Of a DNA stretch of 33,798 nt, positions 847 through 31,565 are shown piece after piece. Under the pieces are notes generated by a model, which had not been told where the DNA came from, searched no databases, and worked only from the letters and a program-made list of their open reading frames with translations. Each line of letters begins with the position of its first letter. The stretch's first letter is position 1. This DNA comes from Firmicutes bacterium HGW-Firmicutes-15 (GTDB lineage Bacteria; Bacillota; Syntrophomonadia; Syntrophomonadales; Syntrophomonadaceae): positions 1-33,798 of the forward strand of contig PHAA01000032.1 in assembly GCA_002840245.1 (NCBI GenBank), written 5' to 3'. A program made the position numbers and the translations under genes.

Positions 847-962
847 CTTTTACCCTGCGGGTACTTCTGAGGTTTTCATCGTTCGCGATGGAGAGCGGAA
901 CACTTGCGACGTCCACGGATGGACTAGTGCAGCGGTGCCACGGATGGCAAAGAGCTGCCCCA
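847..962. repeat. Composite repeat insertion in the transposase 3' part
   Basis: Aligning the transposase reading frame on both sides shows extra DNA here that interrupts the C-terminal tail. The insertion has two parts. The first is a hairpin-rich unit starting ACCCTGCGGGTAC followed by CATCG-TTCG-CGATG. The second is a 52-bp segment at 907-958 identical but for one base to 24519-24570 in the left GC-rich repeat block. This ties the lesion to the same repeat family found 23 kb away. Confidence 0.7.
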
Positions 963-1908
963 CAGATCCAGATGTATCAATATCTTCTTGACGATAGCCA
1001 GATCTTCGATAATGGATATAATTCGCATGTGACCACTACATTTAGGGCAGAGTAATGGATCGATATGATAAATCTTTTGAATCAGGCGAGCCCAGTTTCT
1101 GCGAAAGGCCTTTTTTTGAAATATCAGATTCAACCAACGACGCCATCTCTACATCAGTCTCGGTTTTTTTGCGCATCCCTCGCGACTTGTTGGAATAATA
1201 TCCGTAATATCTGACCAACTGTTCTCCCTTATTGGGAATATGGGTAACAAGTCTTGCCAACCAGTCAAGAGCCATAAAGGATTCCCGAACCCCGTTGTTC
1301 TTGCCTCTATAGATTACTCTGGCAATACCGTCAGGCACTTCGGATGCGGGTATATAGAGCAGTCTTTCCTGTGAGAGGGGAGCTCTAATAATATATTGAG
1401 CAAGTTTCTCCAGCCCTTCTTGATCCCCTGGATTAATGGCTGGCCCACAATAGACATTAAAACCGCTGTGATGCCAGCTTAGCATATTTTCAATAATGTG
1501 GTTGTCTATTTTCCCTGCCTTTTTCAACATCTTGAATACTTCCCCACAAAACAAGTCTATGAGGCTCGAAGCATCCGGTTCAGTCCCCACCATAAATCCT
1601 CCATCTGTTGCAAAACAGCCATCGCTTGCAATGATATGCAGGTGTGGGTTGAAGTTTAGAAAATCCCCGAAGGTCTGCACCGCTATTACAGCTCCCGGCT
1701 TAGGGTCATCTAAAGAAACCCCCTGGGTCAAGTAAAGTGACAAGACTTTCCAGGCGCATCGGCATAATTTGGACAGCAGGCTACGGTCATACATAAAATA
1801 GCGTCTGAGCCTTTTAGGGATACTAAAGACCCACTGGCGATGGGGTACCTGTTTGAGCACCTCTGTATACAGAGATTCACCGAATTCAAGCACTCTTTTT
1901 TGATGGCA

Positions 1909-1956
1909 GCAACATTATTGGTGAGCGATAGCGAACATCGGTGGTACCCGCAGGGT
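1909..1956 (-). repeat. 48-bp miniature repeat insertion splitting the CPSC motif
   Basis: Removing these 48 bases restores a perfect IS91-type zinc finger (CPS then CHQK) and reading frame. On the minus strand the insert begins ACCCTGCGGGTAC, the same 13 bases that open the second insertion at 847. It then has a second potential hairpin around GTTCGC. It carries a TAA stop in the transposase frame, so it inactivates the gene even though its length is a multiple of three. Confidence 0.65.
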
Positions 1957-10312: not shown

Positions 10313-13300
10313 TTAAATTTTCCCCATAATATTGAGCAGGGTCTGGTAACTGTCAACATCATGGTATTTGACCTTGCTGGTTGATAAATGGTTAAATAGC
10401 CGTTTTGCACAATCTATTTTAGCTCTTTCAATTGGGCGAGTTTGCAGTGTTTCCATGGTGCCTTTGGTTTCGGCAATGAAATAAATATGCTTCACAGTGC
10501 CTTCATTAAAAGCAATTGCCCAGTCCGGCGAGTAATTACCAACCGGAGTCGGGATGGAGAAGCCTTTCGGTAGTTTGGCATATACGCAAACCTCGTTGGC
10601 TCGGTCCATATTTTCAGCAAAACGGCGCTCAACGCTCTTTTCAGCGGTGCCATCAGTAAATACATAATCCTGAATATGTTTCTTGGCTCGAAATGCTTTA
10701 GTAAAATCACCCAGAACCTTTTTCGGAGTAAAAATGCTGCTGTCGTATTGCTTTTCAATTTGATCATAGGAAATGTGCTCAACGATCATGGTGGCCTTTT
10801 GCTCCTTGATTAGACGTATCGCTTTGGTAATAAACTCTTCCGGGTTGTCTCTGAACATGCCAAATCTCGGCTTTTCAATACCTGCTAAAATAGTTGCAAC
10901 AGTACGGCGGGTCAGGGTGGTTCCATCGGCAATCTTCCCTACAATGTCGTATTTGATTTGGCTCATTTCCGCATGCCGCAAGGTTTCTGTTCTGGCAGCT
11001 TCACAAACGAAGCTGTCCCCACGAGCAATTGCATACGCATCCAGGTCTGTAGTTTGCTGACCGGTGGCTACCGTATATTGAAGCTGGGTAACAAACATTT
11101 TTTCGTTAATATGCTTTATGGCCTTTTTAATTAACTCCTCACTATCGAACTCAACGGTGTATGCATACTGATGGTTGATATAACCCCATAGTGTCTGAAA
11201 TTCCTGCTTGTAAAAATTATCATTAAGAGCGTTTTCTTTAATCTTGGTGGCATTGCCATTTTCGATCATTGCATCCAGAACACTCTCATCAAAGACGCTC
11301 TGAACTAATGTATGAACACCTTCACCAAGAGACGTCAGCGCTTCAGGGAGATGCGCCAGACAATTGTTTTCCAAATCGGTTCGATAAGCTTCGGTTACGT
11401 TATCGTTGTCATCAATATAATCGTGTTTAAGCAGATAACGATAAATATCTTTGGCCTGCTTGGCATCCAGCACAACCGGCTGTTCTCCGACCATAATGGT
11501 CTTACCCATAAAATATTCCTGAGTTGCCTTGGACGGACGGTCATATAAAGCTGCTTTGATGCCGGTTTGCAAATCAGCAACAAAGTTCTTATAACCCTCG
11601 CTGGCAATAACAGTAAGCATATTGATGGAATGGATAGACTCCCCGTACCGTTCGGAATCCATTCGGTCGCCGTTTTGATTAACACAAAGACGAAGACCTC
11701 GACCGACTTCCTGGCGCTTTTGGGTCGGGCTGATACCGCCATGTTTTAACGTACAAATTTGAAAAACATTCGGGTTGTCCCAGCCTTCACGCAAAGCGGA
11801 GTGTGAGAAGATAAAACGCACCGGTTCCTCAAAGCTGAGCAAACGTTCCTTGTTTTTGAGAATCAAGTCATAGGCAGAAATATCATCACTCTCTTCGCTG
11901 CCTCGCTTGGTGGCACTGTCTACCTTATGACCTTGTTTGTCGATGCTGAAATAGCCCGCATGGGTTGAGTGTGGCTCAATACTTTTTAAGTACCGGCTAT
12001 AAGGCGTATCTATCAAAGTAATGTAATCGTTTAGTACATTGATATACTCCTGTTCAAACATAGCACCGTATTCGGAATTAACCTCTTCACCTGCGTCATT
12101 GTATACCCGATACTTGGCTACTTCATCGATGAAGAACAAAGAAAGGGTCTTAATGCCCAGTTCAAACAGATGCTGTTCTTTTTCAAAGTGTGAGATGATC
12201 GTCTCCCGGATTTGAATTCGACGCATATCCTTTTCGGAAACATCACCAACAACTTCACCACGGGATAACACCTGGCCGTTGGTAAAGGTTACCGTACCGC
12301 GTATAGGATCTATATCGCTGATATGATAGCCCTTGTACTGTTCCATATTGTTGGAAATGACGTAAAGGTCATCATCCACACCAAGAATGCGGGGTTCACG
12401 GTTGATGGATTTTTGATACTTGATTTCCAGTTCGATTTTTGCCATGGGAGGCTTTTTAGGCGAGATCAAGATATTTTCCAGGAATAAATATTTATCCGCA
12501 CCTCGCAAATTCTTCAGTTCAAACCCTTTGACTTCAATCTTCTTAACCAGCCGCTTATTATAGGCATCCACTGCATCCAAAACATATACCAGGTTATGAT
12601 GCTGAGCGTGGGTGGCAGAGTAATTCAAGCAGAACAAAGGATTGAATTTTTTTAAAGCTTCCTGAGTTTTGTCTCCGCCCATTTTTTGCGGTTCATCCAG
12701 TATCAGAATTGGACGGTTGGCTTTAATGACATCAATAGGCCGGCGGCTGCCGAAATCATCTAATTTTTCATAAATGCGGCGAGCTTCTTTACTTCTGGCG
12801 TCTTCTTTCATGGAAGTATTGAACGCCTGGATATTGATGATCATGACGTTGATTCCGGCACTGGAACTAAAATTGTCCAGTTCGGACAGGTTTTTGCTGT
12901 TGTAAATAAAAAACCTTATCTTTTTGCCGTAATGCTCCATAAAGTGTTCCTGGGTGATTTCAAAGGACTTTTTCACACCTTCACGAATCGCGATAGATGG
13001 AACCACCACGATAAATTTGCTCCAGCCGTATTGCTTGCTCAGCTCAAAGATGGTCTTTATGTATACATAAGTTTTACCGGTACCCGTCTCCATCTCCACA
13101 TCCAGACTACAGGCACCTAAATGGCCTACCAGGCTGTCCGACTGTTTGATATTATTGAGCGCTTGCAAATTGCGAATGTTTAAGAGCAGTTGTTCAGGTT
13201 TTAAAGCCAATTTGGCATTTTCGTAGCCAGTTGCAGCCTCATCTTCCGAAGGCTCCTGAGCTACAAATATCGTTCCCTGGGTATGCTGCGGTTTTTTCAC

Positions 13301-13417
13301 GATACCTAAATCGCGCACATAGCTTACCCGTTCGGTAAAAGGTTGTCCGGCAAAGATATTCACGACACTATTTACGGAATCGGTTTGGTAGGGTTGAATT
13401 TTAAATTTGAATTTCAT
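10313..13417 (-). CDS. Type III restriction-modification system, restriction/helicase subunit (Res)
   Basis: A 1034-residue Res subunit that, with Mod, translocates on DNA and cuts when it meets an opposing complex at unmodified sites. The SF2 helicase core has Walker A METGTGKT at 109-116, DEPQ in the Walker B position, SATH as motif III, and QKRQEVGRGLRL as motif VI. The C-terminal part carries a PD-(D/E)xK nuclease: PDWAIAF followed by IYFIAETKG. Full length for the family, and no disrupted motif is seen. It begins two bases after the mod stop, so the pair is one operon. A seven-base-stem hairpin at 10270-10306 lies immediately downstream, without a T-run on this strand. Confidence 0.93.
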   Translation of the reverse strand: MKFKFKIQPYQTDSVNSVVNIFAGQPFTERVSYVRDLGIVKKPQHTQGTIFVAQEPSEDEAATGYENAKLALKPEQLLLNIRNLQALNNIKQSDSLVGHLGACSLDVEMETGTGKTYVYIKTIFELSKQYGWSKFIVVVPSIAIREGVKKSFEITQEHFMEHYGKKIRFFIYNSKNLSELDNFSSSAGINVMIINIQAFNTSMKEDARSKEARRIYEKLDDFGSRRPIDVIKANRPILILDEPQKMGGDKTQEALKKFNPLFCLNYSATHAQHHNLVYVLDAVDAYNKRLVKKIEVKGFELKNLRGADKYLFLENILISPKKPPMAKIELEIKYQKSINREPRILGVDDDLYVISNNMEQYKGYHISDIDPIRGTVTFTNGQVLSRGEVVGDVSEKDMRRIQIRETIISHFEKEQHLFELGIKTLSLFFIDEVAKYRVYNDAGEEVNSEYGAMFEQEYINVLNDYITLIDTPYSRYLKSIEPHSTHAGYFSIDKQGHKVDSATKRGSEESDDISAYDLILKNKERLLSFEEPVRFIFSHSALREGWDNPNVFQICTLKHGGISPTQKRQEVGRGLRLCVNQNGDRMDSERYGESIHSINMLTVIASEGYKNFVADLQTGIKAALYDRPSKATQEYFMGKTIMVGEQPVVLDAKQAKDIYRYLLKHDYIDDNDNVTEAYRTDLENNCLAHLPEALTSLGEGVHTLVQSVFDESVLDAMIENGNATKIKENALNDNFYKQEFQTLWGYINHQYAYTVEFDSEELIKKAIKHINEKMFVTQLQYTVATGQQTTDLDAYAIARGDSFVCEAARTETLRHAEMSQIKYDIVGKIADGTTLTRRTVATILAGIEKPRFGMFRDNPEEFITKAIRLIKEQKATMIVEHISYDQIEKQYDSSIFTPKKVLGDFTKAFRAKKHIQDYVFTDGTAEKSVERRFAENMDRANEVCVYAKLPKGFSIPTPVGNYSPDWAIAFNEGTVKHIYFIAETKGTMETLQTRPIERAKIDCAKRLFNHLSTSKVKYHDVDSYQTLLNIMGKI

Positions 13418-13419
13418 GC

Positions 13420-15399
13420 TTACAGCACCTTCCTTACCGTAGTCGGACTGTAAGTTTCAAAAATCTGCTCAAAGTTAGTGGCGACACTGTCGCTGGCCAT
13501 GGAGCTGTCACGGAACACGGCATAATAAGGCTGCTTTCTGGCAATTTCAGTGATGACCTCGCTGGTGACATTGCTGTCAAAGCAGGCCAGCAGATAACCT
13601 TCGGCTACGTTGAATACCATTTTACCACCGATAATTGTTTCTTCAATTTTGCTGGACAGCAGTACACCCAGATCCAGCATAACCTGAAAGAGCAGGTCTT
13701 CCGGGGTGCGGTCAGGTTTGATGTTGTCAGCAAACAGTAACATCTTATCCTGCTCATATTGGGCAGGGTTGTAGTAAACATCCTGCATGTTGGTTGTATC
13801 TACCTTCAGAACACGGAAGCCGATATCCAATTTGTCCGCAGCTTCAGGGTGTTCCTCCAGAATTTTTTTGCCCGCACTATGGATACGCTCTTTGCCGATT
13901 TCGCAGATGTTCTTATAGCCCGCCTTTAAGGCTTCAGATTTTTCATCAGTCTCCTCTGGTAGCTGCACCATAATAAATTTACGGTTACTTCTATGTTCGG
14001 AATTCAGTTGCATAATGGCATGGGCGGTAGTTGCTGAACCGGAGAAGAAATCGAGTACTATATCATCAGAGGAAGTAAAGGACAAAACATGCTCAGCTAC
14101 GATATCAACAACTTTTGGGGTATCAAATGGTATACCAAGTTCTTTAAGAAGATCATCATCGCTTCCACCATAGTACAGCAATGATGGTATGTTTTCGAAC
14201 ATATTATCTTTTAAAAGATACTTTCTGTTCGGTTGGGTTGTTTCATCTTTACCAAACAATATCATTCCTTTTTTTATCAAATCTTGCATTGTAGCAGAAG
14301 GATTACGCCATCCTCGTTCTGGTATAGGACACGATTTGCCAGTAACAGGATGAATCAATGGGATAAAGTAGTCATCGGGTGCCTTTTTCTTATTAGGCCA
14401 TGCCATGGAAACTGGTCTGTATACATTACCATTTTCATCAATCCTATTATAAGCTTTCTCTCCTCCGCTCAAGTCCGTCTGCGAATTAACCCACTTTGCA
14501 TAGTCGCTATTAGCTTCAACTAATGAACTACTGCGATTAAGTAATTGAGTTGCTTTAGTAAGCATTTTATTAGCATTCTTTTTTGGCCGAATAATTGGGT
14601 GCCTTGTAGTTAAAAATTCTTTATTTCTTGCAAACAAAACAATGTATTCATGTTGAGCCGAAATACCCTTCGCATCGCCTTTAGGATTACGTTTATCCCA
14701 GACAATTGTGCCTAATTCATTTGCATTGCCGAATATTTCATAACAAATCTTTTGGAGGTTAGAAATTTCATTTTCATCCATGTTAATTAAAATAACCCCA
14801 TCATCAGTCAGTAAATCCTTAGCCAGTTTCAGACGCGGATAAATCATGTTCAGCCAGTCAGTATGAAACCGCCCATTGCTTTCCATGTTCTGCACAAGGC
14901 GGTTGCCTTCCTCATCGTACTGCCCGCTATTAGCCAAATATTCATCAGTATCCTGTGCAAAGTCATCCTCATAAACGAAATCATTTCCCGTATTATATGG
15001 CGGATCAATATAAATCATCTTCACTTGGCCTAAGTAGGTTTCCTTCAACAATTTGAGAACATCCAGATTGTCTCCCTCTATGTACAGGTTCTCGGTTTTT
15101 TCAAAATCCACGCTTTCCTCGTGGCAGGGACGCAGGGTTTTGGCAATAGGGGCATTGGCCAGCAATATGGATTTTTTCTTATCCGGCCAGGTAAACTGAT
15201 AGCGTTCCTCCGGGCCTTCCACTACAAAGCTGGACAGCTCCTGGCGCAGTACATCAAAATCAATAGCCGGCTCAATGATGGCCGAACCATCTTCCCTATA
15301 ACCTTTAATAACCTCAGTCAGCGCGTTGGGGAACAATGCTCCTATTTTTTCGATGTTTTCATCAACTTTATTAACAGAGTGCATTTTCAGCTTTTCCAT
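13420..15399 (-). CDS. Type III restriction-modification system, adenine methyltransferase (Mod)
   Basis: A 659-residue N6-adenine methyltransferase of the beta class that recognises and modifies the target site for the type III system. The catalytic motif DPPYNTG lies at residues 132-138 and the AdoMet-binding motif DFFSGSATTA at 450-459. The order (DPPY before FxGxG) and the long intervening target-recognition region are as expected for Mod. GGAGG lies eight bases before the ATG. It starts the downstream part of the island after a 248-base gap from gajB that contains a terminator, so it probably has its own promoter. I found no phase-variable repeat tract in the gene. Confidence 0.94.
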   Translation of the reverse strand: MEKLKMHSVNKVDENIEKIGALFPNALTEVIKGYREDGSAIIEPAIDFDVLRQELSSFVVEGPEERYQFTWPDKKKSILLANAPIAKTLRPCHEESVDFEKTENLYIEGDNLDVLKLLKETYLGQVKMIYIDPPYNTGNDFVYEDDFAQDTDEYLANSGQYDEEGNRLVQNMESNGRFHTDWLNMIYPRLKLAKDLLTDDGVILINMDENEISNLQKICYEIFGNANELGTIVWDKRNPKGDAKGISAQHEYIVLFARNKEFLTTRHPIIRPKKNANKMLTKATQLLNRSSSLVEANSDYAKWVNSQTDLSGGEKAYNRIDENGNVYRPVSMAWPNKKKAPDDYFIPLIHPVTGKSCPIPERGWRNPSATMQDLIKKGMILFGKDETTQPNRKYLLKDNMFENIPSLLYYGGSDDDLLKELGIPFDTPKVVDIVAEHVLSFTSSDDIVLDFFSGSATTAHAIMQLNSEHRSNRKFIMVQLPEETDEKSEALKAGYKNICEIGKERIHSAGKKILEEHPEAADKLDIGFRVLKVDTTNMQDVYYNPAQYEQDKMLLFADNIKPDRTPEDLLFQVMLDLGVLLSSKIEETIIGGKMVFNVAEGYLLACFDSNVTSEVITEIARKQPYYAVFRDSSMASDSVATNFEQIFETYSPTTVRKVL

Positions 15400-15529
15400 T
15401 CATAAAACCTCCAGTTTTATTTAATGCAGAAATTAGATAAGCCTGTACGCCATAGGTTCGTTTGTATTAGTACACCCCTCATATGTCTTTCAATTATTAC
15501 AGTAAGATTGCGGTAAATACCTTATACAG

Positions 15530-15559
15530 GGAACACAAAACCACGCAAACCTGCGCGGT
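15530..15559 (-). terminator. Terminator after the Gabija genes
   Basis: On the minus strand ACCGCGCA pairs with TGCGTGGT (one G-T) around a four-base loop, followed by TTTTGTG. It lies about 90 bases after the gajB stop and separates it from mod. Confidence 0.6.
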
Positions 15560-15576
15560 AATATACATCTATTGAA

Positions 15577-15610
15577 GCTGAGGGACGGATTTGAACCGCC
15601 AACCGGTGGT
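15577..15610 (-). pseudogene. tRNA-like 3' fragment (T-arm and acceptor strand)
   Basis: Read on the minus strand this contains a T-arm (GGCGG-TTCAAAT-CCGTC, one G-T pair) followed by a seven-base acceptor-like strand CCTCAGC. The GGTTCAAATCC stretch is the tRNA consensus. No matching 5' acceptor strand GCTGAGG lies within 100 bases upstream, so it is at most a 3' remnant, directly followed by the terminator at 15530-15559. It could be an integration scar or chance similarity. Confidence 0.35.
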
Positions 15611-15647
15611 TGTTCGTAAGGGTGGGTACAGCCGTTATCAAACCCAT

Positions 15648-16997
15648 CTAATCTAACCAATCCTCAATAATTGCTTTCTGTATTCCTATATCATTGAGCG
15701 CAGTTCTGATGTCTAGTTTATGCTTTTTAAAATTATTCCGCATTCCTTCATCGTCCTCAACAATTAGCAGTAACCGCTGCTTTGTCCTTGTTAGAGCGAC
15801 ATACAGAAGATTTGTTTCTTTGTCATAATTGTTCTTTATGCCGAGCAGAATCTCTAATAGGGAATTACAAATGATAAAGTATGCGGTATCATCCTCTAAT
15901 CCTTTGATTTTCTGTATAGATTCGACGTATATTCCGGCATCTTTGTCACCATTAAACTGGCTGGCAAGTTTTGCATACTCCGGGGTTGGCAGTCGAATCC
16001 CTTGTTTATTAAGATATCGGCTTAAGCCAATTTCATGAATTTCATGTATAGCTGTACGCCGAAGTGCACTAATATCATGCGTAGGATATTTATCGGCAAG
16101 AATTTCAACAAATTCATGCGTCAAACCCACCTGATCATTAGCTGTTGAGAATACATCGGTTTTCATCTTTATATACGAGAATAAATTACGGCTCGTGAGT
16201 TGTTCCTTGACCTTAGTATCAAGCTCAGATAAAAATACATAAGCAACTGATCCGGATTCTCTATTGCAACTACTTAGCGATGAGTTTTCTGGCAATATAC
16301 TATTGCACAAAGGTATTATGCATGCAGGTATCCTGCGTGATACTGCGTTAATTACTGGGGTTATTCCTTCCTGTTTCTCAACTTCCTCATTAAACCATGT
16401 GTATTTGTCGTTGACCCGTAAAGCTTGAAACGGATCGCCGACAAAATAAAAATGCTCAAGTTTACAGATAATTTTTAACATGAGATCGAAAAAGCACTCT
16501 TCCATATCTTGTGCTTCATCAACAAAAAGGCAAAATATATCACTTGCAAAATAACTTTCAGCAATTTCCTTACGCTTCTTAACGCCAACCTTGTCTCTCT
16601 TTTGAGCAATCAGAACGGATTTCGCATACTTTGGGACTTCGCTGGCATGAATTAATCCTGAATCTTTTAAATTCCGTTTACGTTTTGAATGCCATTTTAT
16701 ATCATCAGGAAGCTTCTCCACGCTACAGGAATTTAATGCCTCTCCTTTTACAAAACACGAGTAAGGGTAAATTATGTTGTTAAGAAAAAAGCCATGCACA
16801 GTATCAATTATAATCTTATCAGGTATATCTCGGATATTTTTTATCAATTCATCTTTTATCTGCTTTACCGCATAATTCGTATAAGTAATTACATAAATCT
16901 TTTTATCTTCTGGACAATCATCCAATATGTCAATTATTTTCTGTGCTATACCATATGTTTTTCCAGCTCCAGCGCATTCAATATGTACTTCCCTCAT
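15648..16997 (-). CDS. gajB: Gabija anti-phage system, UvrD-like helicase GajB
   Basis: A 449-residue superfamily 1 helicase acting with GajA in Gabija defence. Walker A is CAGAGKT at residues 8-14, Walker B is FVDEAQDME, and the C-terminal motifs include IQKIKGLEDD and LLYVALTRTKQRLLLI (motif VI). Its short length compared with UvrD, lacking large 1B/2B inserts, fits GajB. I place the start at the ATG at 16997, where ATGA overlaps the gajA stop. A frame extension up to 17072 lies within gajA and would put 25 unusual residues before the P-loop. Identification rests on motif content plus pairing with an OLD-type ATPase/nuclease. Confidence 0.88.
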   Translation of the reverse strand: MREVHIECAGAGKTYGIAQKIIDILDDCPEDKKIYVITYTNYAVKQIKDELIKNIRDIPDKIIIDTVHGFFLNNIIYPYSCFVKGEALNSCSVEKLPDDIKWHSKRKRNLKDSGLIHASEVPKYAKSVLIAQKRDKVGVKKRKEIAESYFASDIFCLFVDEAQDMEECFFDLMLKIICKLEHFYFVGDPFQALRVNDKYTWFNEEVEKQEGITPVINAVSRRIPACIIPLCNSILPENSSLSSCNRESGSVAYVFLSELDTKVKEQLTSRNLFSYIKMKTDVFSTANDQVGLTHEFVEILADKYPTHDISALRRTAIHEIHEIGLSRYLNKQGIRLPTPEYAKLASQFNGDKDAGIYVESIQKIKGLEDDTAYFIICNSLLEILLGIKNNYDKETNLLYVALTRTKQRLLLIVEDDEGMRNNFKKHKLDIRTALNDIGIQKAIIEDWLD

Positions 16998-18721
16998 CGC
17001 TTTATCCATTCTAGCAAAGAGCCGATATAATCTGGTATTGAAAAATCCACTCCTGCGTCCATGGCGCGGCATATTGCGATAATATTATTAAGCTTATCTG
17101 AAGTCATATGATCGTACATCTCTTGTGCAGAAAATGTCTTATCAAATAGTTTATTCAATTTTGCAAGGTTACTAGCCTTTTTAACAAAGTCGTTCTCAAA
17201 TTCTTTGCCCGCAGAAGTTTCTATCATTATTACGTCAGAGTTATAGACCTCATGCTCTCGCTTAGCTTGGTCCTGGTAATCATAATCCCGTACTATGCCC
17301 AATTTTTCCTGAGTGGTATGTTCGTGAAAAGAAGTCCACGCTTTTATAAACGATTTAAAACCTTTTTGGCCAATTGAAATAACCCGTATATTATTGAGCG
17401 AGCTATCCCGTTGCAATAAAGAATTTATGTATATTTCTTCTGTCGAACCTTCCACCATTATCAACTTTGAAGCATAAAACATATTCAGCGTATCAAAGTT
17501 TTCGCGTTTAGCAAGATAATATACAAGTTCTGGGTCAACATTGGCTAAATCAATAACAGAAGTATTGTTAAGCAAAAGTATCACATTTGTTAATTCCAGC
17601 TTATTCATTATTTGATTGCTATGAGTAGAGATAACAAGCTGTGTCAGCGCATTTTTACCCTGCGCCTTTTGAAAAAACTCTATAGCAATTTTAAGATTAT
17701 TTATGTCCAGGTGTGATTCTGGTTCTTCAATACAAACAAGATTAAATCGTTTGAACGTATCACTGAGAAAATAGCTGTATAACGTAAGGAGGAAAATAAG
17801 ATTGCGAGTCCCGAGACCCCGCTGAAAGAGCATGTCGTTACCATAGCTTAAAGTGATATTTTCAATAATATCTTTATATTTTTTTGCATTTGGAACAAGC
17901 CGTATATCATTAATAAAGTCTTCGATAGATTGATTCTGAGAGATAATATCGCTGTATATGCTTCTAAAAGAATCAAGTGACTTAATGCCATCAAAGAATT
18001 CTTCATACCTCTTTGTAAGCTCAGCTTTATCCTTTAAATTCAGGCTGCTATCGATTATATTTGCTACTACCCTTGTGGCACTTGCAGTATCACCGCTTGA
18101 AAAAGAATCGCGTTCAGCATCAATTGTGTTCGCAACGAAGTTTTTTATCTTTGTGTAGTCAATACTTTTATTGTTGTTGGTAGATCTCAGATAATGTTCA
18201 TAGCATTCAAGAAATAGCTGAAAATCCGCATGGCGCTCCTCTAACAACCCCTCTTTTTCCAAGTCGCAAATCAGCTTATTTAGTCTTTTGTTGTCCTTAA
18301 GATAGTACTTATATTCTATTTCAAAGAACTGCAGCTTTTCGTCTCCGTTCAGCCAGTCTCTCAGAAGGCTCTGCTCATATGGCGTTTTCGCATCTTCAAA
18401 CTGCATGCGAATTATAACTATTGGGGCATTTTTTACCAGTTCCGCAGTATAATTTTCTGCATTAAAATCATCTTTCATTCCTTCATAAATCGCTTTCATT
18501 TTGGAAACAAATTCATTAACACACTGGGAGTTAAAGTCATATTTCGATAAGGATTTTGCATAATAATTACCTTTGCTGTTATAAAGCAAAATGTTTATAG
18601 CATCAACAAGATTGCTTTTGCCTGTATCATTTTTCCCAACAATAATTGTAAACGGTTTGAGGGGAACATCAACCGTCGAAAAATTTCTAAAATTCTCTAT
18701 ATGTACATTCGATATATACAC
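16994..18721 (-). CDS. gajA: Gabija anti-phage system, OLD-type ATPase/TOPRIM nuclease GajA
   Basis: A 575-residue class-2 OLD-family endonuclease, close to the known GajA length. It opens with an SMC/ABC-type ATPase head: IENFRNFSTV, Walker A GKNDTGKS at 29-36, a Q-loop and insert, the signature region GLGTRNL, and Walker B LVCIEEPESHLD. The C-terminal TOPRIM nuclease has LIMVEGSTEEIYI (metal-binding Glu) and GIVRDYDYQD (DxD). In Gabija, nucleotide depletion releases GajA nicking activity and GajB processes the ends. The start is GTG with AGGGGTGAG upstream, nine bases after the KilA-N stop, and the end overlaps gajB, so the three genes form one transcript. Confidence 0.9.
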   Translation of the reverse strand: MYISNVHIENFRNFSTVDVPLKPFTIIVGKNDTGKSNLVDAINILLYNSKGNYYAKSLSKYDFNSQCVNEFVSKMKAIYEGMKDDFNAENYTAELVKNAPIVIIRMQFEDAKTPYEQSLLRDWLNGDEKLQFFEIEYKYYLKDNKRLNKLICDLEKEGLLEERHADFQLFLECYEHYLRSTNNNKSIDYTKIKNFVANTIDAERDSFSSGDTASATRVVANIIDSSLNLKDKAELTKRYEEFFDGIKSLDSFRSIYSDIISQNQSIEDFINDIRLVPNAKKYKDIIENITLSYGNDMLFQRGLGTRNLIFLLTLYSYFLSDTFKRFNLVCIEEPESHLDINNLKIAIEFFQKAQGKNALTQLVISTHSNQIMNKLELTNVILLLNNTSVIDLANVDPELVYYLAKRENFDTLNMFYASKLIMVEGSTEEIYINSLLQRDSSLNNIRVISIGQKGFKSFIKAWTSFHEHTTQEKLGIVRDYDYQDQAKREHEVYNSDVIMIETSAGKEFENDFVKKASNLAKLNKLFDKTFSAQEMYDHMTSDKLNNIIAICRAMDAGVDFSIPDYIGSLLEWIKR

Positions 18722-18730
18722 TTTATTATC

Positions 18731-19573
18731 TCACCCCTTTGGCATTTCCAGCCTCTTTAGCCGTTCAATAGCTGCGCTGTCCAGAAGTGATCTCATCATA
18801 TGCTTGGCGCTGGCATTAAGCCGCAGGAGGCGCTCCTTTTGTGGTAGCCCCTGACGAATGAATTCAGCATTTAGGCTTTCCATATTCGCCAGAACAATAA
18901 GCTGCTGGAGTGATGCCTCATCACGGATATTTCCTTTGGCATCCGGATTAGCCTGACGCCATTCTTTTGCCGTTACTCCAAACAGTGCAACATTCAAAAG
19001 ATCTGCTTCATTGGCATAAGTTATGTTTTGTTTTTGTGGTGTAACGTCTGGCGGGATTAAAACATCCTTTATGGCATCGGTATGTATCCGATAATTAATT
19101 TTTGCAATGGTGCGGTTAAGATTCCATCCGAGCGACAGTCGGCTGTTTTCATCTGCTTTTAGTCGTTGATAGTCTTTAATAATGTATAGTTTAAACTCTG
19201 GCGAAATCCACGATGCAAACTCAAAAGCAACATCTAAATGTGCAAATGTAGCAGCATATCGCCCTTGTTTCGTGGTGATACCAATGGCTCCAGTTTTCTC
19301 AACCCACTTTTTTGGCGTTAAAACGAAACTGTTGAGTCCGGCTTCATTTTCAATTGCCTCGAATTCGAGGCAATTGAAACCCGAATTATTTATTTTCTCC
19401 CATAATCCAAGAAAACGAACTACATTTCGGTTCCGCATCCAGTTCTGTATCACATACCCTGGATTTTCATCCGTTTTATACTTTGCAATATCAGTCAGGG
19501 AAATATAATCATTCTCATCGCCACCGGAAATAACAGCAATTTCGGTTCCTTTTGCAATAATAGTTTCCTTCAT
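18731..19573 (-). CDS. KilA-N domain protein
   Basis: A 280-residue protein with an N-terminal KilA-N domain, a DNA-binding fold shared by phages, large DNA viruses and defence-island genes. Typical blocks are DYISLTDIAKYK, VIQNWMRNRNVVRFLGLWE, FAHLDVAFEFASWISPEFKL and YIIKDYQRLK. The C-terminal half is mostly helical and unassigned. I prefer the ATG at 19573, with AAAGGA seven bases upstream and a KilA-N-typical opening (MKETIIAKGTEIAVI). ATGs at 19591 and 19606 are alternatives. It lies nine bases before gajA, so it is probably co-expressed with Gabija and may regulate it or guard against phage functions; that is inference. A perfect 32-base palindrome sits inside the gene. Confidence 0.82.
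   Translation of the reverse strand: MKETIIAKGTEIAVISGGDENDYISLTDIAKYKTDENPGYVIQNWMRNRNVVRFLGLWEKINNSGFNCLEFEAIENEAGLNSFVLTPKKWVEKTGAIGITTKQGRYAATFAHLDVAFEFASWISPEFKLYIIKDYQRLKADENSRLSLGWNLNRTIAKINYRIHTDAIKDVLIPPDVTPQKQNITYANEADLLNVALFGVTAKEWRQANPDAKGNIRDEASLQQLIVLANMESLNAEFIRQGLPQKERLLRLNASAKHMMRSLLDSAAIERLKRLEMPKG
19348..19379. repeat. Perfect 32-base palindrome within the KilA-N gene
   Basis: The 16 bases at 19348-19363 are the exact reverse complement of 19364-19379, centred on GAATTC. It encodes FNCLEFEAIE of the KilA-N protein without breaking the frame. It could be an operator, a cruciform or a recombination footprint. Confidence 0.8.
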
Positions 19574-19813
19574 ATTTTTATCCTTTGTCATCGAATTTGC
19601 CCCCATTCAATATATGAGAAAAGTAGTGAGACTAATTATGAACTGCAAAAAAAAATTCGTGCGGTTCACTTATTCATGTAATAATAACAAAATTTACCTT
19701 TATTCTCAATCCATTATTCTACCCGACCCGTTCCTTAACCTCTGCCATCATTCCTTCATCAATCTCGATATCCTTAGCCATCGAGATGATATGCTTTTTC
19801 GGCTTATCCCTTC

Positions 19814-20440
19814 TCATTCTCCTTTTTCTTCGTCTAATTCTTTTTTCAAACCCTGCAACTGGGTAAATAGTTCAAATCGTTTTTTAGGTTGTTTTTCATT
19901 GCGAGAGAGCCGTTCTAATTTATCGATTTCCTTTTGCAGTTTTAGAATTGTATCCTGTTTTTTTAGCTTTTCAGGAATAGAAAGACTATCATTAACAGGT
20001 CCTACATTTTCCTGCAGAGCAATCTGCTCGATAAAGCCTTCCCATACGCTATCGAGATTGAGGCCTTTGGCATCCAGTTTTAGGTCGGTAAGCGGCATCC
20101 AACTGGTCATGTAAAGCTTGCTGTAGTACAAAGCCAACTGTCCCTGTTCCTCAGATTTTAAAAAGAAAAGCAACTTGTGTGCATTTTGCCGGGCTATATT
20201 TTCTACAATACGATAGTCCATTTCCTGCTTTTTCAGTTCAATTGAGAGGACCAGAATTTCGGATACCTCTGCACCTTTTTCAATATTTATCGTATCCGGT
20301 GACAGTTTGTACTCCATGACAATGCGTTTTACGTCCGCAACGAATTTCTCGCGGATTTGGCTGCTAAGTGTCAGCCTTTTATAAAAAGCTTCCTTTGGCA
20401 TGATTCTTCCAACAGCAGTCCTACTCGGAAAAGTCAGCAC
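19814..20440 (-). CDS. DUF4391 family protein
   Basis: A 208-residue protein resembling the DUF4391 family, of unknown biochemical function, which is repeatedly found beside large helicases and DNA methyltransferases in restriction-like clusters. The opening LTFPSRTAVGRIMPKEAFYK fits the family; the C-terminus is a charged coiled coil (about residues 150-205). I chose the GTG at 20440, preceded by GGTGGTGA and overlapping the helicase stop by seven bases; an upstream TTG at 20461 is less likely. Translational coupling to the helicase argues for a complex between the two. A non-coding gap of about 240 bases (19574-19813) follows before the KilA-N gene. Confidence 0.72.
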   Translation of the reverse strand: MLTFPSRTAVGRIMPKEAFYKRLTLSSQIREKFVADVKRIVMEYKLSPDTINIEKGAEVSEILVLSIELKKQEMDYRIVENIARQNAHKLLFFLKSEEQGQLALYYSKLYMTSWMPLTDLKLDAKGLNLDSVWEGFIEQIALQENVGPVNDSLSIPEKLKKQDTILKLQKEIDKLERLSRNEKQPKKRFELFTQLQGLKKELDEEKGE

Positions 20441-23400
20441 CCTATCACCACCATAAAGCAAATTAGTTCAAAGTCATCCAGACCTGAAATGCTACCAGTC
20501 AAAAAAGTCGTTTGTCCATCATTGAAGAAGCTGTCCAGATCACTTTCTTCTTTAACGCTGATAATCGAAGCAATCGCTTGTTGGAGCAAACCCGATACAC
20601 TATCCATTTTTTTGCCATCGTTGGTTTCGTTATTGAATATCTGGCAGGCATCCATATCAGGTGCATTATTGTCGCGAGAATGATGACGCATAATATCGAG
20701 AGTTGCTTTGGGCTCCAGATGATTGCAAATGACCTCTCCATCCTCACTAATATATACCATGTAAAACGGATGCAGGCGGTTTTGATTTTCGATGTCAACC
20801 GCTTTATTTACGTTCTTTAATACAAAAATTACTCCCGGCTTTTCGCCACGCACTACCGCATGTATGCCGAATGGGGTTCGATCCAGATTCGGATGATCCT
20901 TAATGTAGGCCAGCAAGTCCATACGGAATTCATTCAGTCCCAAATCCATGATAGATATCCCTGTGGTCATATCTTCCAGGTCTACTACTTCGTTCTGCAG
21001 CTTTTCCAATTGCTGGCGGCGATAGGAAAGATCGCCGTTTTCATCCTGATTAATATAGTCATCATCACCTGTGGAGGTCATGACAGAGATCCGCATTCTC
21101 GTTTCAACGCGGCTTTTCAGGTTTATATAATCATCCAAAGTCAAATCCGGCCAGAAGTTCACCAGCTGAATCACCTGGTTCTTGCTGCCGATACGGTCAA
21201 TACGTCCAAATCGCTGAATAATACGTACCGGGTTCCAGTGAATGTCATAGTTGATTACATAGTCACAATCCTGAAGGTTTTGCCCTTCGGATATACAGTC
21301 GGTCGCAATCAGGATATCAATATTGTGATGATCATTGGGCATGAACAGTGCCTTCTCTTTGGAGACTGGCGAGAAGCAGGTCAAAATGGTATTCATATCG
21401 ATGGGAAACTTTGGGATTGTCGTTCTTCCGTCAATTGATCCGGTAATTAAGGCGCTGTTCAGGCCAAATTTAGCTTTCACAAAAGCGCTTACATTTTCAT
21501 ATAAGTACTCTGCTGTATCAGAGAAGGCGGTGAATATAATTATTTTTTTATTATCTTGGTTAATGGGGTTCATGAGTTTCTTCTCTATAACATTCAAGAG
21601 CTCATTCAGCTTATAATCATATTCTGGCGTAATATCTTCACTCATCATGATCAGGATTTCAAGAATTTCTAAGTCAGCTTTCAGATTACGCTGCCATGAT
21701 AGGTAGTCCATATCACGAAGATCAATTTTAAACTTTTTACCGACATTAAAAATATCTAAATTTTGATCATCCAGATCAATATCACCAAAATCATTAATAT
21801 TCCGCACCGTAACTTCCGAACCGGACAGGAAGCTGTTAATGATATCCAGGGTGTCATAAATTTGATCATAGATACGTTTTACGGTTAGCCGGAAGGAATG
21901 AACCGAGCTTTCCATTCTTTTGAGTAAGTTAATGCTCATCAAACGGCGAATTCCTTCTTCACGTCCGCTTTGAGACAGCCGTTTGCTGTGTTCAGAATCC
22001 AGATCAATATATTTGCCCAGCTTGCTGGCCAGGATACAATTACTCGGCGTATAAATCGATAAATTTAGCTGCATTAGCTGTTCATATATCTGCTCGTAGT
22101 TAATGGCATTGTTCAGCGTGGTCAGTTTTGGACGCAAGGAAATCGGCTTATTTCGCTCTGGGAAACCACCAATTTCCGAAATATCATAGTAACGTGTTAT
22201 ATGTTTCCGCGAACGGGCAATAGTCACACTATCCAATACCTCAAAAAAGTCAAAATCCAGCTGCTTCAGTAAAGAGGAAGTGGAACGTAGTTCTGGTGGT
22301 TGCTTACTCCATGCATTGAACACTTTCTGAGCCTGACGGAAAATTGTATCAATATCTGATTTGGTGTTTAGTTTATCGTTGATCAATTCTGATTGTCCCT
22401 CATAAGCCAGGGCCAGTTGGTTGCGCAGATCATAGAAACGATTATTAACGGGTGTAGCCGACAGCATTAAAACCTTAGTTTTTACACCAGGGCGAATGAC
22501 TTTATTTAGTAGCTTCAAATAACGGTTTTCTTTTTCATTGTCTTCTCCGGAAGTAGACCCTCCGTTGCGGAAGTTATGCGATTCATCAATAACCACCAGA
22601 TCGTAGTTGCCCCAGTTAATACGATCGAGAGGCAAGCCAATGACAGAATCTCCACGTTCACGTGATAAATCCGTATGGAAAAGAACATCATACCTCATAC
22701 GATCTTTGGATAGTGGATTGTTGATTAAGTTGCCGCGATAGGTCATCCAATTGTCTTTCAGTTTTTTGGGGCAAAGAACCAGTACATTTTTATTTCGGTT
22801 TTCATAATACTTGATTACTGCCAGCGCAGTGAAGGTTTTACCAAGACCAACGCTGTCTGCTAAAATGCAGCCATTGTACTGTTCTAGTTTATTTATTATT
22901 GCCAATGCGGCATCCTTTTGAAAATTATATAGCTTGTTCCAGATCAGACTGTTTTTGAAACCAGTAGCCTCGTTAGGAAGAATATCTTCGGAAATATCTT
23001 CAAGAAACTCGCTAAAAATGTTTTGAAGAGTCACGAAATAAATAAGTTCAGTAGAGTTTTCCTGATAAACAGCCGAAATATATTCAATGACTTGTTCCGT
23101 CACATCCTGAAGACGGCTCTCATCATTCCATATACTCTCGAAGAGGCGAATGTATTCGCTGCTAAATGGAGCTTCAAATTTATTCACCATATTATAGACA
23201 TTGCTACCACGCTCACAACCAATATCAACAGTTGTGAATCCGTTTAAAGGCATGTAGGTTAGCTGCTGATCAGGCGGCGTTTGCACATTGAGAAATCCCC
23301 CCATGCTGTCTTGTGTAGAGTTTGATTTAAAGGTGACCTTTTTACGAATCCAATCAGCACATTCCCGAGCAATGGCTTTTTGCGACAACTCATTCCTTAA

Positions 23401-23670
23401 CTTCACCTCGAATTCAGTACCATAAAGGCTTCTTTCCCTATGTAATCGCGGAATATAAAATTCCCGTTTTTCCTTGGGAGACTTTTCGGTTACAAATGTG
23501 GGCGATGTAAATATAAAATGCAAGGAATCAACCTTACTTAACTGACGCTTCAATTCCTGATATGCATAAATCGAAAAACAAGCAGCCGCAATAGAAATAC
23601 GGCTTCCCGGAGTAATGACTTGTACTAAATCATCCTTCACTATTTTTGTTGTATTGTTAAACACTTCCAT
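20434..23670 (-). CDS. Large SNF2/RapA-type helicase with PLD-like N-terminal region
   Basis: A 1078-residue SF2 ATPase. The first 150 residues resemble the phospholipase D-like region of helicase-nuclease fusions (ISIAAACFSIYAYQELK), although I see no complete HKD catalytic pair. Helicase motifs follow: Walker A DSVGLGKT at 272-279, VVIDESHNF, MLSATPVNN, then in the second RecA lobe ILIATDCISEGQNLQ and IIQRFGRIDRIGS. The last motifs are typical of SNF2/RapA-like translocases. The start at 23670 follows GGGGGGA by eight bases; the in-frame ATG at 23697 has no such site. It heads the minus-strand island and is coupled to DUF4391. Role inferred: DNA translocation and cleavage or remodelling in a restriction-like system, possibly using the downstream Mod. 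Confidence 0.85.
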   Translation of the reverse strand: MEVFNNTTKIVKDDLVQVITPGSRISIAAACFSIYAYQELKRQLSKVDSLHFIFTSPTFVTEKSPKEKREFYIPRLHRERSLYGTEFEVKLRNELSQKAIARECADWIRKKVTFKSNSTQDSMGGFLNVQTPPDQQLTYMPLNGFTTVDIGCERGSNVYNMVNKFEAPFSSEYIRLFESIWNDESRLQDVTEQVIEYISAVYQENSTELIYFVTLQNIFSEFLEDISEDILPNEATGFKNSLIWNKLYNFQKDAALAIINKLEQYNGCILADSVGLGKTFTALAVIKYYENRNKNVLVLCPKKLKDNWMTYRGNLINNPLSKDRMRYDVLFHTDLSRERGDSVIGLPLDRINWGNYDLVVIDESHNFRNGGSTSGEDNEKENRYLKLLNKVIRPGVKTKVLMLSATPVNNRFYDLRNQLALAYEGQSELINDKLNTKSDIDTIFRQAQKVFNAWSKQPPELRSTSSLLKQLDFDFFEVLDSVTIARSRKHITRYYDISEIGGFPERNKPISLRPKLTTLNNAINYEQIYEQLMQLNLSIYTPSNCILASKLGKYIDLDSEHSKRLSQSGREEGIRRLMSINLLKRMESSVHSFRLTVKRIYDQIYDTLDIINSFLSGSEVTVRNINDFGDIDLDDQNLDIFNVGKKFKIDLRDMDYLSWQRNLKADLEILEILIMMSEDITPEYDYKLNELLNVIEKKLMNPINQDNKKIIIFTAFSDTAEYLYENVSAFVKAKFGLNSALITGSIDGRTTIPKFPIDMNTILTCFSPVSKEKALFMPNDHHNIDILIATDCISEGQNLQDCDYVINYDIHWNPVRIIQRFGRIDRIGSKNQVIQLVNFWPDLTLDDYINLKSRVETRMRISVMTSTGDDDYINQDENGDLSYRRQQLEKLQNEVVDLEDMTTGISIMDLGLNEFRMDLLAYIKDHPNLDRTPFGIHAVVRGEKPGVIFVLKNVNKAVDIENQNRLHPFYMVYISEDGEVICNHLEPKATLDIMRHHSRDNNAPDMDACQIFNNETNDGKKMDSVSGLLQQAIASIISVKEESDLDSFFNDGQTTFLTGSISGLDDFELICFMVVIGC

Positions 23671-24137
23671 GATAAAATTCCCCCCAGATGATATCATACC
23701 AAAGTATCAGTCCCATAGACTAATATAGTTACAACACGCGCGTTTCACTGAGGTTAATAATGATTCCAGTGAAGGCATAATGTCTGAATTATTAGGAGAT
23801 TCAAAATTATTGGTTGTCAATCTATAAATATTCAAGTTGCATCCCACCGGGGCAAGCCCCTCCGCCCAGGGCTTCGCCCGCGCTCCGGGACGTGCCCCTA
23901 TCCCGCTCCGTGCCATGTCCTCCACTGCATTACGCTGCGCAGTTCCGCTCTATTCCGGACTACGTCCTCCACTGAGCTACACCCTGCGCTTCATTCCGTT
24001 CCAGACATAGCCCTTCCGCTCGCTGCTCGCCCGCTCCTTCAGGTTCCGCCTGGAATAGTGGTGCGGAACCCGAACCAGCTCCCCGATGTTATGCTGGTGG
24101 TTGGGAGAACGCTGACGACATCCAACCGCCCATCATC

Positions 24138-24196
24138 CGATAATGGGGATTATGTATTCCCTGCGGAATCTCCGATTTACATAATCACCATTATCG
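24138..24196. repeat. Long hairpin in left repeat block, 19-bp arms
   Basis: Arms 24138-24156 and 24178-24196 pair at 18 of 19 positions. The loop contains its own small hairpin ATTCC-CTGC-GGAAT. The counterpart at 31007-31063 has a different stem sequence but the same pairing. Confidence 0.75.
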
Positions 24197-24991
24197 AAAG
24201 AAGGGCTACCCCGGCTCCGCACGTCCCTCCCGGCTACCCGATCGGCGCTCACCCTCGTGCGCTGCGCGATTGTAAGACTCGGATGTTCGCGGCCTTCCGG
24301 GACATGCTCCACCTCGCTACCCGCCCGCTAGAACCGGCTGCGCTGGCGCTCCGCTCTCGGTACCAGCTCCCCGATGGTATTTGGGTGGGATCCTGGCATA
24401 ACTATCCTTATTAGGTTTGATTAACCCCGCCTAACGGCGGGAGCTGCTGCGGCAGCTGAATAAACTATATCTATCCGTGGCAAGCTCCTCCGGACTGCTG
24501 CGCGCCCTCCGGAACTTACGACGTCCACGGATGGACTAGTGCAGCGGTGCCATGGATGGCAAAGAGCTGCTCCCGTTAACCCGCTCCGGCCAGTCCTCCA
24601 ACGGTTACCCTTTCGGCTCGCTCCTGCCTACTTCGTATCGTGTGCAGATGAGCTCGACCGGTTCCTGGCTAGCTTGCCGCTCAGTGGTCGCCCGCTCGAA
24701 CCGGCTGCGCTTACACTTCGCTCTCGGTACCAGCTCCCCGATGATAGTTTTTTAAGTTTACCGCTCCTTCAGAGTCTCACGGAGTGATATATGCCCTCGC
24801 CGGGCTGGCATTATTGTCTTGTCAGACGGTCTTATTATCATCCTCGCCGGAGGGCATCCCTGCGCTCGATCCTCCTACGTCGGAACCAGCTCCAGGATAG
24901 TGACCGGGACAGGCTCCCTATGGTCGCCAGTCCCTGGGGTTACCCCCCCATAACCTGAATAGGCGGGGAAGATAAAATTATACCGGCTCCA

Positions 24992-28026: not shown

Positions 28027-28124
28027 TTCCATATAATTAACCTGGAAATCTGCGGATATAAAGTAATTAATGTCTAATAATGGCAAGGTGCCAGAAAATA
28101 AATTTAATAAGGAGTGTTAATTTT

Positions 28125-28916
28125 ATGTCAGTATTGAGTTATTTGGAAGATACAGCAAGCAGCTTGGTGTTATCTAGCAACGAGAAAAGTAGCATAACTA
28201 CTTCAGTAAGTACTATTAAAAGCCGGATTGATTCATATTTTGGTTCGGATGTTAAAGATCATTTTCAATTTGGTTCATATACAAGAGATACTATCCTTCC
28301 AAGAAAATATGATGAGCGGTCAGATGTTGATTATATTGTTATTTTTAAAAATCCCGATAACTATAAGCCTCAGACACTACTTAATTGGCTAAAGCAATTT
28401 GCAGAAAAATATTATTCTAGTTCAGAAATTTATCAATCACATCCAACAATGGTATTGGAATTATCTCATATAAAATTTGAACTTGTTCCTGCAATCAAAG
28501 ACGGTTGGGGTACAATATCTATCCCTTCACCTTCAAGTACGTATTCTGATTGGATGACAACTGACCCTAATGGTTTCAATACAAGTTTAACGAATGCAAA
28601 TACAAATAACTCATATAAAATAAAGCCCCTTATAAGGTTAATGAAGTATTGGAATGTGAAAAAGGTAAGTAGAGGGTATTCTTCATTTTTGCTTGAAAAG
28701 TGGGTAGTTGATAATTCCTATTATAGTTGTAGTAACCTTAAGGATTATTTCTTTAAGTGCATTGATGATATTTCATATAATTACGATAGCCCTCAATATT
28801 TGAAAACTGCAATTGATAATGCTAAGACAGTTGTTAAAAATATTAGACAATATGAAAAAGATGGACAAATAACTAGTGCTGAAAATGAAATAAAGAAAAT
28901 TATACCAGAGTTATAA
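28125..28916 (+). CDS. CBASS-like CD-NTase (SMODS nucleotidyltransferase)
   Basis: A 263-residue cGAS/DncV-like nucleotidyltransferase that would make a cyclic oligonucleotide alarm on phage infection. The active site is FGSYTRDTILP (Gly50-Ser51), the metal-binding pair D67 and D69 in RSDVDYIVIF, and the third acidic residue E119 in IKFELVPAI. A helical C-terminal domain follows (LIRLMKYWNVKK, YSSFLLEKWV). The start at 28125 follows AAGGAGTG; the frame is open upstream to 28080 without a better site. The gene is far more AT-rich than the amidase cluster before it, pointing to separate acquisition. The predicted membrane effector begins 11 bases later. The exact cyclic nucleotide cannot be told from sequence. 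Confidence 0.88.
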   Translation: MSVLSYLEDTASSLVLSSNEKSSITTSVSTIKSRIDSYFGSDVKDHFQFGSYTRDTILPRKYDERSDVDYIVIFKNPDNYKPQTLLNWLKQFAEKYYSSSEIYQSHPTMVLELSHIKFELVPAIKDGWGTISIPSPSSTYSDWMTTDPNGFNTSLTNANTNNSYKIKPLIRLMKYWNVKKVSRGYSSFLLEKWVVDNSYYSCSNLKDYFFKCIDDISYNYDSPQYLKTAIDNAKTVVKNIRQYEKDGQITSAENEIKKIIPEL

Positions 28917-30562: not shown

Positions 30563-31565
30563 ACCTCTCTGTTTGCGAGCCGGTATACTAATTAGCTCCC
30601 CGCCCATTCCGGTTTCCCAAGCGCAACCTCTGGGATTGGCGACCAGAGGGAGCCTGTCCTCGTTCCAATCCTGGAGCTGGTTCCGACGCAGGAGGATCGA
30701 GCGCAGGGATGCCTATCCGGCGAGGATTATAATAAGACCGTCTGACAAGACTATAGTGCCAGCCCGGCGAGGGCCACAGATCACTCCGTGAGACTCAGAA
30801 AGAGTAGGTGCCCGAAAATACTATCACCGGGGAGCTGGTACCGAGAGCGGAGCGCAAGCGCAGCCGGTTCGAGCGGGCGGGCAGCGAGGTGGAGCATGTC
30901 CCGGAAGGCCGCACTCATCTGCGACTTACAATCGCGCAGCGCTCGCAGGAGTGCGCCGATCGAGCAGCCTGGAGGGACTTGCGGAGCCGGGATAGCACCT
31001 ACTTAGTATAATAGTCGTTATGTAACCCATAGGGTGCGCAGCGCATACATAACGTCTATTATAGGAAGTCGGTGCGGCGGGCTATCGCCAGCGGGCTCTA
31101 AGCAGAAAGACTACCACTGGGGAGCTGATACCGAGAGCGGAGCGTAAGCGCAGCCGGTATGAGCGGGCGACCACCGAGTGGAAGGCTCAGGGCGGAGGGC
31201 CGCGAACATCCGAGTCTTATAATCGCGCAGCGCACGAGGGTGAGCGCCGATCGGGCAGCCCGCAGCCCTGTGCCGGAACGGGATATCAGGGATCGCCAGC
31301 GTTCTCCAACCCACAAGAATATCATCGGGGAGCTGGTACCGAGAGCGGAACGAAGTGCAGCCGGTTCTAGCGGGCGGCCACCGAGCGGGAGGGCTATGTC
31401 TGGAACGGAATGAAGCGCAGGGTGTAGCATAGTGGAGGGCATGGCCCGGAACGGAACGGAACTCCGGAGGGTAATGGAGTGGAGGACATGGCACGGAGCG
31501 GGATAGGGGCAAAGTCCCGGAGCGCGGGCGCAGCCCGGTGCGGAGGGGCTTGCCCCGGTGGTGCG
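30563..31565. repeat. Right GC-rich repeat block, main part
   Basis: About 1 kb of GC-rich DNA that is the inverted counterpart of 23845-24965. The core motif (here as CGGGGAGCTGGTACCGAGAG or a close variant) occurs at about 30828, 31117 and 31325, each followed by GCGGA and CGCAGCCGGT. These mark tandem sub-repeats about 200-290 bases apart. The hairpin at 31007-31063 lies inside. The outer end (CCGGGGCAAGCCCC, minus strand) mirrors 23847. Overlapping open frames on both strands are compositional and lack ribosome sites. The 31566-31759 stretch is AT-rich leader DNA of the next gene. Confidence 0.85.
31007..31063. repeat. Long hairpin in right repeat block, 18-bp arms
   Basis: Arms 31007-31024 and 31046-31063 pair at 17 of 18 positions. 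The loop holds a small TGCGCAGCGCA hairpin. It lies at the position equivalent to 24138-24196 in the left block. At four stem positions both arms differ between the copies in a way that keeps pairing, and the single mismatch is at the same place. Confidence 0.75.

Follow-up and report, generated by a model that had tools for sequence, protein, structure and literature searches.

A 48-nt structured repeat, here called element B, is inserted at positions 1909–1956 (minus strand) of the window, the whole 33,798-nt stretch of contig PHAA01000032.1 from Firmicutes bacterium HGW-Firmicutes-15 that was analysed. Insertion of B is precise and strand-specific. B is a REP/RPE-like micro-element, self-nesting and gene-invading, of a family undescribed in the literature that could be searched, where no paper on repeats in Syntrophomonas was found. 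At a probability of about 0.55, it is read here as a non-autonomous single-stranded-DNA element that depends for its movement on an enzyme acting in trans, most probably a Y1 (HUH) transposase.

Features of the window (positions, strand, description):

749–2231 (outer limits approximate), minus strand: IS91-type (Y2_Tnp) transposase pseudogene; Pfam PF04986, E 3e-21; reading frames; relatives.

852–905, plus strand: stretch starting with ACCCTGCGGGTAC, taken by the preliminary description as insertion; common to all IS91-type relatives; weak covariance-model scores.

867/868, strand not applicable: empty site GGTACTTC^TGAGG; the paralogue on contig C45 has another 48-nt B exactly there.

908–959, plus strand: A element, 52 nt as inserted, 51-nt core 908–958, GACGTCCACGGATGGACTAGTGCAGCGGTGCCACGGATGGCAAAGAGCTGC, two hairpins with ANGGAT loops; absent at the site in locus L243, present in L256 and L006.

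978/979, strand not applicable: empty site gatgtatc^aatatc; the C45 paralogue has a 48-nt B exactly there.

1909–1956, minus strand: intact 48-nt copy of B, ACCCTGCGGGTACCACCGATGTTCGCTATCGCTCACCAATAATGTTGC, inserted 3' of C; covariance model 72.5 bits; empty sites in relatives.

24520–24570, plus strand: second A element of the window, in a GC-rich block; one difference from 908–958.

The longest open piece of the pseudogene is 1042–1893; both inserts, B at 1909–1956 and A at 908–959, sit within the pseudogene, and the B copy introduces a TAA stop in the frame of the transposase gene. IS91-type relatives with an empty site (genomes G057, G007 and G045) lack exactly the 48 bases of 1909–1956; their DNA reads ...CCC(T/A)TCC^TG(C/T)CA(T/C)CA(A/G)AA... 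with nothing between, and the protein across the site, RRYFCPSCHQKR (one residue differs in G045), runs uninterrupted through YFCPSCHQKR. The 48-bp insertion claimed in the preliminary description is therefore exact. Had these bases been native to the IS91 lineage, with no insertion, their occurrence at the identical position in the IS91-type gene of G069, another genus (locus L246), would follow; this reading is refuted by the three other lineages, in which precisely these 48 bases are missing and the CPSCHQKR motif is unbroken, and by the presence of the same 48 nt in unrelated loci. The L246 copy suggests transfer of the transposon together with its insert. The C45 paralogue of the window gene carries two additional B copies where the window is empty.

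The 13-mer ACCCTGCGGGTAC occurs exactly twice in the window (852–864, plus; 1944–1956, minus; expected 0.03), in opposite orientations, and 12 times as an exact match in the 3.47-Mb genome; the common 48-nt unit was recognised by reading these exact copies with their flanks. It had been proposed that the 13-mer opens two insertions of one element, the second being a single insertion of ~115 bp at 847–962. The 13-mer is indeed present at both sites, but at 852–864 it lies within sequence shared by the relatives and is not the start of an insert: 852 to ~905 aligns, though diverged, with every IS91-type relative reaching that far (L242, L243, L256, L006), so this 13-mer is not part of a recent insertion. 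The inserted part is 908–959 only, a member of another repeat family, of 52 nt (A). Intact IS91 relatives with the same bases, which had been named as the observation that would speak against insertion, are found for 852–905; for 1909–1956 this objection fails. The B covariance model scores 11–20 bits on 852–905, so a very old, decayed B or a chance likeness to B is possible; from the alignment, the stretch may be native coding sequence, which is the preferred reading.

The 52-base match between ~908–959 and 24519–24570, with one difference, is real; the shared bases are the separate mobile element A and not, as had been supposed, a piece by which one element shares parts with the GC-rich blocks. 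About 30 copies of A were present in the fetched loci. Two A insertion points are seen in the IS91-type relatives. On its left side the window copy joins the flank as at one of these points, on its right side as at the other; from these mixed junctions it looks like a product of recombination between two A copies. A nests in A at A position 26, on the same strand, in five loci. Its structure has three helices (98% of cells paired) with compensatory change, GCAGC/GCTGC and GTCGC/GCGAC. Among 26 distinct copies the ANGGA loop is present in 25 (hairpin 1) and 24 (hairpin 2), N being any of the four bases; both terminal loops read ANGGAT, A.GGA being conserved and N free to vary, and fit the CsrA/RsmA consensus ANGGA in a hairpin hexaloop. 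The loop of RsmZ hairpin 2 (RsmZ-2) is AAGGAU (PMC3791407). Judged by its loops, A is a possible candidate for a mobile CsrA-binding RNA.

B copies: the common unit is ACCCTGCGGGTACCACYGRTGTTCGCTATCGCTCACCAATAATGTTGC, which was found inserted at unrelated places; length 47–53 nt; 3' end GTTGC. With a covariance model built from 35 copies, 82 matches at E<0.001 were obtained in the own genome and 137 at the same threshold in G059 (2,936,195 bp, one contig); genome-wide statistics are based on genome-search matches and fetched loci. B is present in 41 of 54 genomes of the host's family (probably Syntrophomonadaceae), at 0 to >110 copies per genome in that survey, and in only 2 of ~289 sampled genomes elsewhere in the phylum; matches to the B pattern that carry names are Syntrophomonas MAGs. 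No Rfam family reached its gathering score near the inserts.

B structure: hairpin I is ACCC-loop-GGGT. In hairpin II the pairs at positions 22/35 (UA or CG, 18:15) and 25/32 (CG or GC, 18:15) covary, the covariation score being reached by 0 of 500 shuffles, and an internal mismatch is conserved in 80 of 83 distinct copies (TC/TC in 68, TC/TT in 12). Length classes of 47, 48 and 53 nt were seen in G059, the 53-nt class having a longer upper stem of hairpin II with the TC/TC mismatch retained. The B consensus is without terminal inverted repeats; classification as a MITE was rejected on this ground and for the lack of a duplication beyond one ambiguous C, a CRISPR-like explanation because tandem copies have no spacers, and an attC explanation because attC core sites are absent. 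Two further repeat families carry B. A third repeat of ~150 bp (...AAGGAATAAACAAGGCAGAATACTCCGAGGATTT...GACAAGGCGTC...ACCGGAGTAAATGACTAG) at L016, L012, L056, L061, L092 and other loci contains B at various positions and was apparently amplified with B already in it; at L134–L139 (G043) identical B copies lie within the separate family TGTCAT(C/T)GCGAGG...GCGAAGCGACG(T/C)GGCGATCT.

Insertion rule: the base at −1 of B is C in 34 of 35 unrelated sites, with weak preferences for T/G at −2 and C/G at −5. No target duplication was found at B sites beyond one ambiguous C, which is either a 1-nt duplication or a retained target base. Excision of B in silico restores the empty site exactly, and occupied/empty pairs are available for the window site, for the C45 copy against the window, and for mutL. 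The genome search and the comparison of occupied with empty sites, as recommended in the preliminary description, thus gave exact boundaries; the suggested miniature repeat family that enters genes is borne out more strongly than proposed, by many exact pairs and by in-frame copies in host genes.

Nesting: removal in silico of 16 of 98 B copies, with rejoining of the flanks, restores a complete or nearly complete outer B, and the inner copy has the orientation of the outer one in all cases (16:0; binomial p 3e-5). The insertion points in the outer B are after position 7 (nine times), 16 (five times) and 26 (twice), i.e., the last loop base of hairpin I, the linker, and the base just 5' of the hairpin II loop, respectively. 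A further 11 copies have another B directly after them. Double-strand insertion without strand preference is hard to reconcile with this one-strand nesting, seen likewise for A in A. In the closed genome of G059, the B strand of 68 of 105 B clusters has the leading-strand sense, which places it on the lagging-strand template (OR 3.4, p 0.003), a modest bias that is uncorrected for gene orientation and phylogeny.

B in host genes: in-frame copies were located in long ORFs of the own genome, in the sense orientation in mutL, addA, addB and tldD and in the antisense orientation in parA, cheA-like, addA and tex-like genes; addA thus contains B twice, the antisense case being a nested pile. B is also present in a parB-like reading frame. 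All single copies in those host ORFs are 48 nt long, which amounts to 16 added codons. In mutL of G000 an insert of exactly 48 nt interrupts the ancestral GGCAAT^CT.CG; a decayed B occupies the same site in G006 (82% protein identity over the matched part), and mutL of 23 other aligned genomes has no B. Among 28 copies examined in G059, 25 are 47 or 53 nt long and none lies in a long ORF. Set against the 48-nt copies in genes, these 47/53-nt copies outside long ORFs indicate that retention in genes is apparently filtered by reading frame. Intragenic REPs of other bacteria are also frequent in DNA repair genes (PMC3733652).

Proposed mechanism: the ACCC... strand of B would move as folded single-stranded DNA. 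Cleavage would fall just 3' of its terminal C, and joining just 3' of a C in an unpaired region of the target strand, with processing as for IS200/IS605 and REP elements by Y1 (HUH) transposases. The recognition hairpin would be hairpin II, with its TC/TC mismatch, and the enzyme would be supplied in trans. A gene-borne copy would survive only where 48 nt give 16 sense codons; in other frames it would break the gene, as in the transposase of the window. Insertion of IS608 is exact, 3' of its target, and relies on a guide and a hairpin (PMC5934647, PMC6006769); E. coli TnpA-REP requires a mismatch bulge, and the cleavage sites of TnpA-REP enzymes follow a C (C|T, C|A) (PMC8266576). Taken together, the exact insertion of B 3' of a fixed base, absence of duplication, one-strand nesting, the mismatched, recognition-like hairpin and the replichore bias make up the signature of Y1 (HUH) single-strand transposition as known for IS608 and TnpA-REP. 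Counts of Y1 transposases and of B over 54 genomes correlate modestly (rho 0.49, uncorrected for phylogeny). The target of B, one fixed base instead of a tetranucleotide, counts against a Y1 enzyme. No B was found within 1.5 kb of the three RAYT-type Y1 genes tested or within 11 kb of the six Y1 genes of G059; a Y1 gene was not detected in the B-rich genomes G011, G014 and G048, two of which are >90% complete, and Y1 is present in several B-free genomes. Inspection of partial matches gave no convincing larger autonomous element with B ends.

Movement through RNA is a less probable route, in which the structured RNA would join unpaired loops of other RNAs in a manner resembling reverse splicing and a reverse transcriptase would copy the product to DNA. 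The covarying structure, the one-orientation nesting at unpaired or loop positions and the absence of target duplication would suit an RNA target equally well, and movement as RNA has reportedly been proposed for the small dispersed repeats of Nostoc, likewise self-nesting. From insertion into mRNA only sense copies would be expected, so the intragenic copies in both orientations disfavour it, and the replichore bias points toward replication. Still less probable is that B is a cut-down derivative of another type of transposon (IS91-like rolling-circle Y2, IS607 or IS110), mobilised by the enzyme of that type. These types likewise leave no target duplication, and the host of this very B copy is a Y2 transposase gene; however, relatives of the IS91-type gene were found in just 11 of the 54 family genomes, and several B-rich genomes (e.g., G006, G043, G059) yielded none; moreover, the single conserved C does not match the targets of IS607 (a 2-nt core) or IS91 (GTTC/CTTG). 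It is quite improbable that B is retained for its use to the host, as an RNA hairpin or a binding site for proteins in the manner of some REPs, with mobility incidental. The strong structural conservation of B, mismatch included, would suit such a use, and host roles have been proposed for REPs (PMC3733652), but copy numbers from 0 to >110 across related genomes, decayed copies, nested wrecks and pseudogene insertions make B look selfish.

The preferred reading is single-strand movement in trans. An extended version of it, put forward tentatively and rather doubtful, would make B the smallest stand-alone single-strand transposon. Both ends would be provided by a single imperfect hairpin, preceded by ~20 nt and followed by ~12 nt, and the bare 48-base unit would enter unpaired bases of one strand; 48 being divisible by three, B would repeatedly add 16-residue inserts to housekeeping proteins. 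Its companion A would carry CsrA-type hairpins, two at a time, across these same genomes, possibly as a mobile CsrA decoy.

Other features of the window: two GC-rich blocks of ~1 kb (23844–24989 and 30577–31561), piecewise 80–95% complementary to each other, lie on either side of a 5.6-kb segment that contains an amidase gene and a gene of SMODS type (CBASS-type nucleotidyltransferase). Positions 10313–23697, 28080–28916 and 31760–32857 have the look of a defence island, with helicase/endonuclease genes of the type III restriction kind and genes for an SNF2-type helicase, a SMODS synthetase and an AAA_21 ATPase. At 2477–2519, what resembles the 3' portion of a tRNA gene (GTTCGAGTC...CACCA) precedes a terminator-like repeat; no tRNA is called there by ARAGORN, and the stretch is possibly an attachment-site remnant.

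Since transposition intermediates and clean empty sites are seldom encountered, the manner in which very small palindromic elements (REP, RPE, SDR) spread is unsettled. The B family offers numerous exact pairs of filled and empty sites, nested copies from which target strand and target base can be read, and a natural contrast between 48-nt copies, which enter genes, and 47/53-nt copies, which were not seen to; it makes single-strand mobility of minimal elements directly testable by biochemistry. The anaerobe lineage tolerates in-frame selfish DNA within repair genes.

Comparison with known systems: the small dispersed repeats (SDR) of Nostoc are, like B, very small, structured, mobile and self-nested; they were reportedly described by Elhai in 2008 as units of 21–27 nt in cyanobacteria, and are not known to insert in frame into genes. 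Rickettsia palindromic elements (RPE; features after Ogata 2000 as given in the review PMC2229807) are, like B, small hairpin-forming repeats that occur between genes as well as in frame within conserved protein genes. B likewise lies in frame in a conserved gene whose homologues lack it (mutL); RPEs are long palindromes of 105–146 nt specific to Rickettsia, whereas B is 47–53 nt with two short hairpins, is confined almost wholly to one family of another phylum, self-nests and has a defined 3'-of-C rule.

REP/REPIN sequences with their RAYT (TnpA-REP) are also small high-copy hairpins (PMC3733652, PMC3116915, PMC8266576). E. coli REP has a conserved stem mismatch and cutting after C, and hairpin II of B also has a conserved mismatch; intragenic REPs are often in DNA repair genes, B likewise in mutL, addA and addB. 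Neither a GTAG nor a CGTC tag stands at the hairpin feet of the B consensus. REPs usually flank their RAYT, whereas B is not beside the Y1 genes where tested (three RAYT loci, six Y1 genes of G059); REPINs are inverted doublets, whereas B is not so arranged and single copies insert precisely.

IS200/IS605 elements and their non-autonomous derivatives insert precisely 3' of a target that is retained in the left flank, without duplication (PMC5934647, PMC6006769), are strand-specific, carry a subterminal imperfect hairpin and prefer the lagging strand, in all of which B is like them; for B the target is C and strand specificity is seen in the 16:0 nesting and the OR of 3.4. B differs in having no transposase gene, a total of 48 nt and one fixed target base instead of a tetranucleotide. 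The kinds closest to B are Rickettsia palindromic elements, REP/REPIN sequences and IS200/IS605 derivatives.
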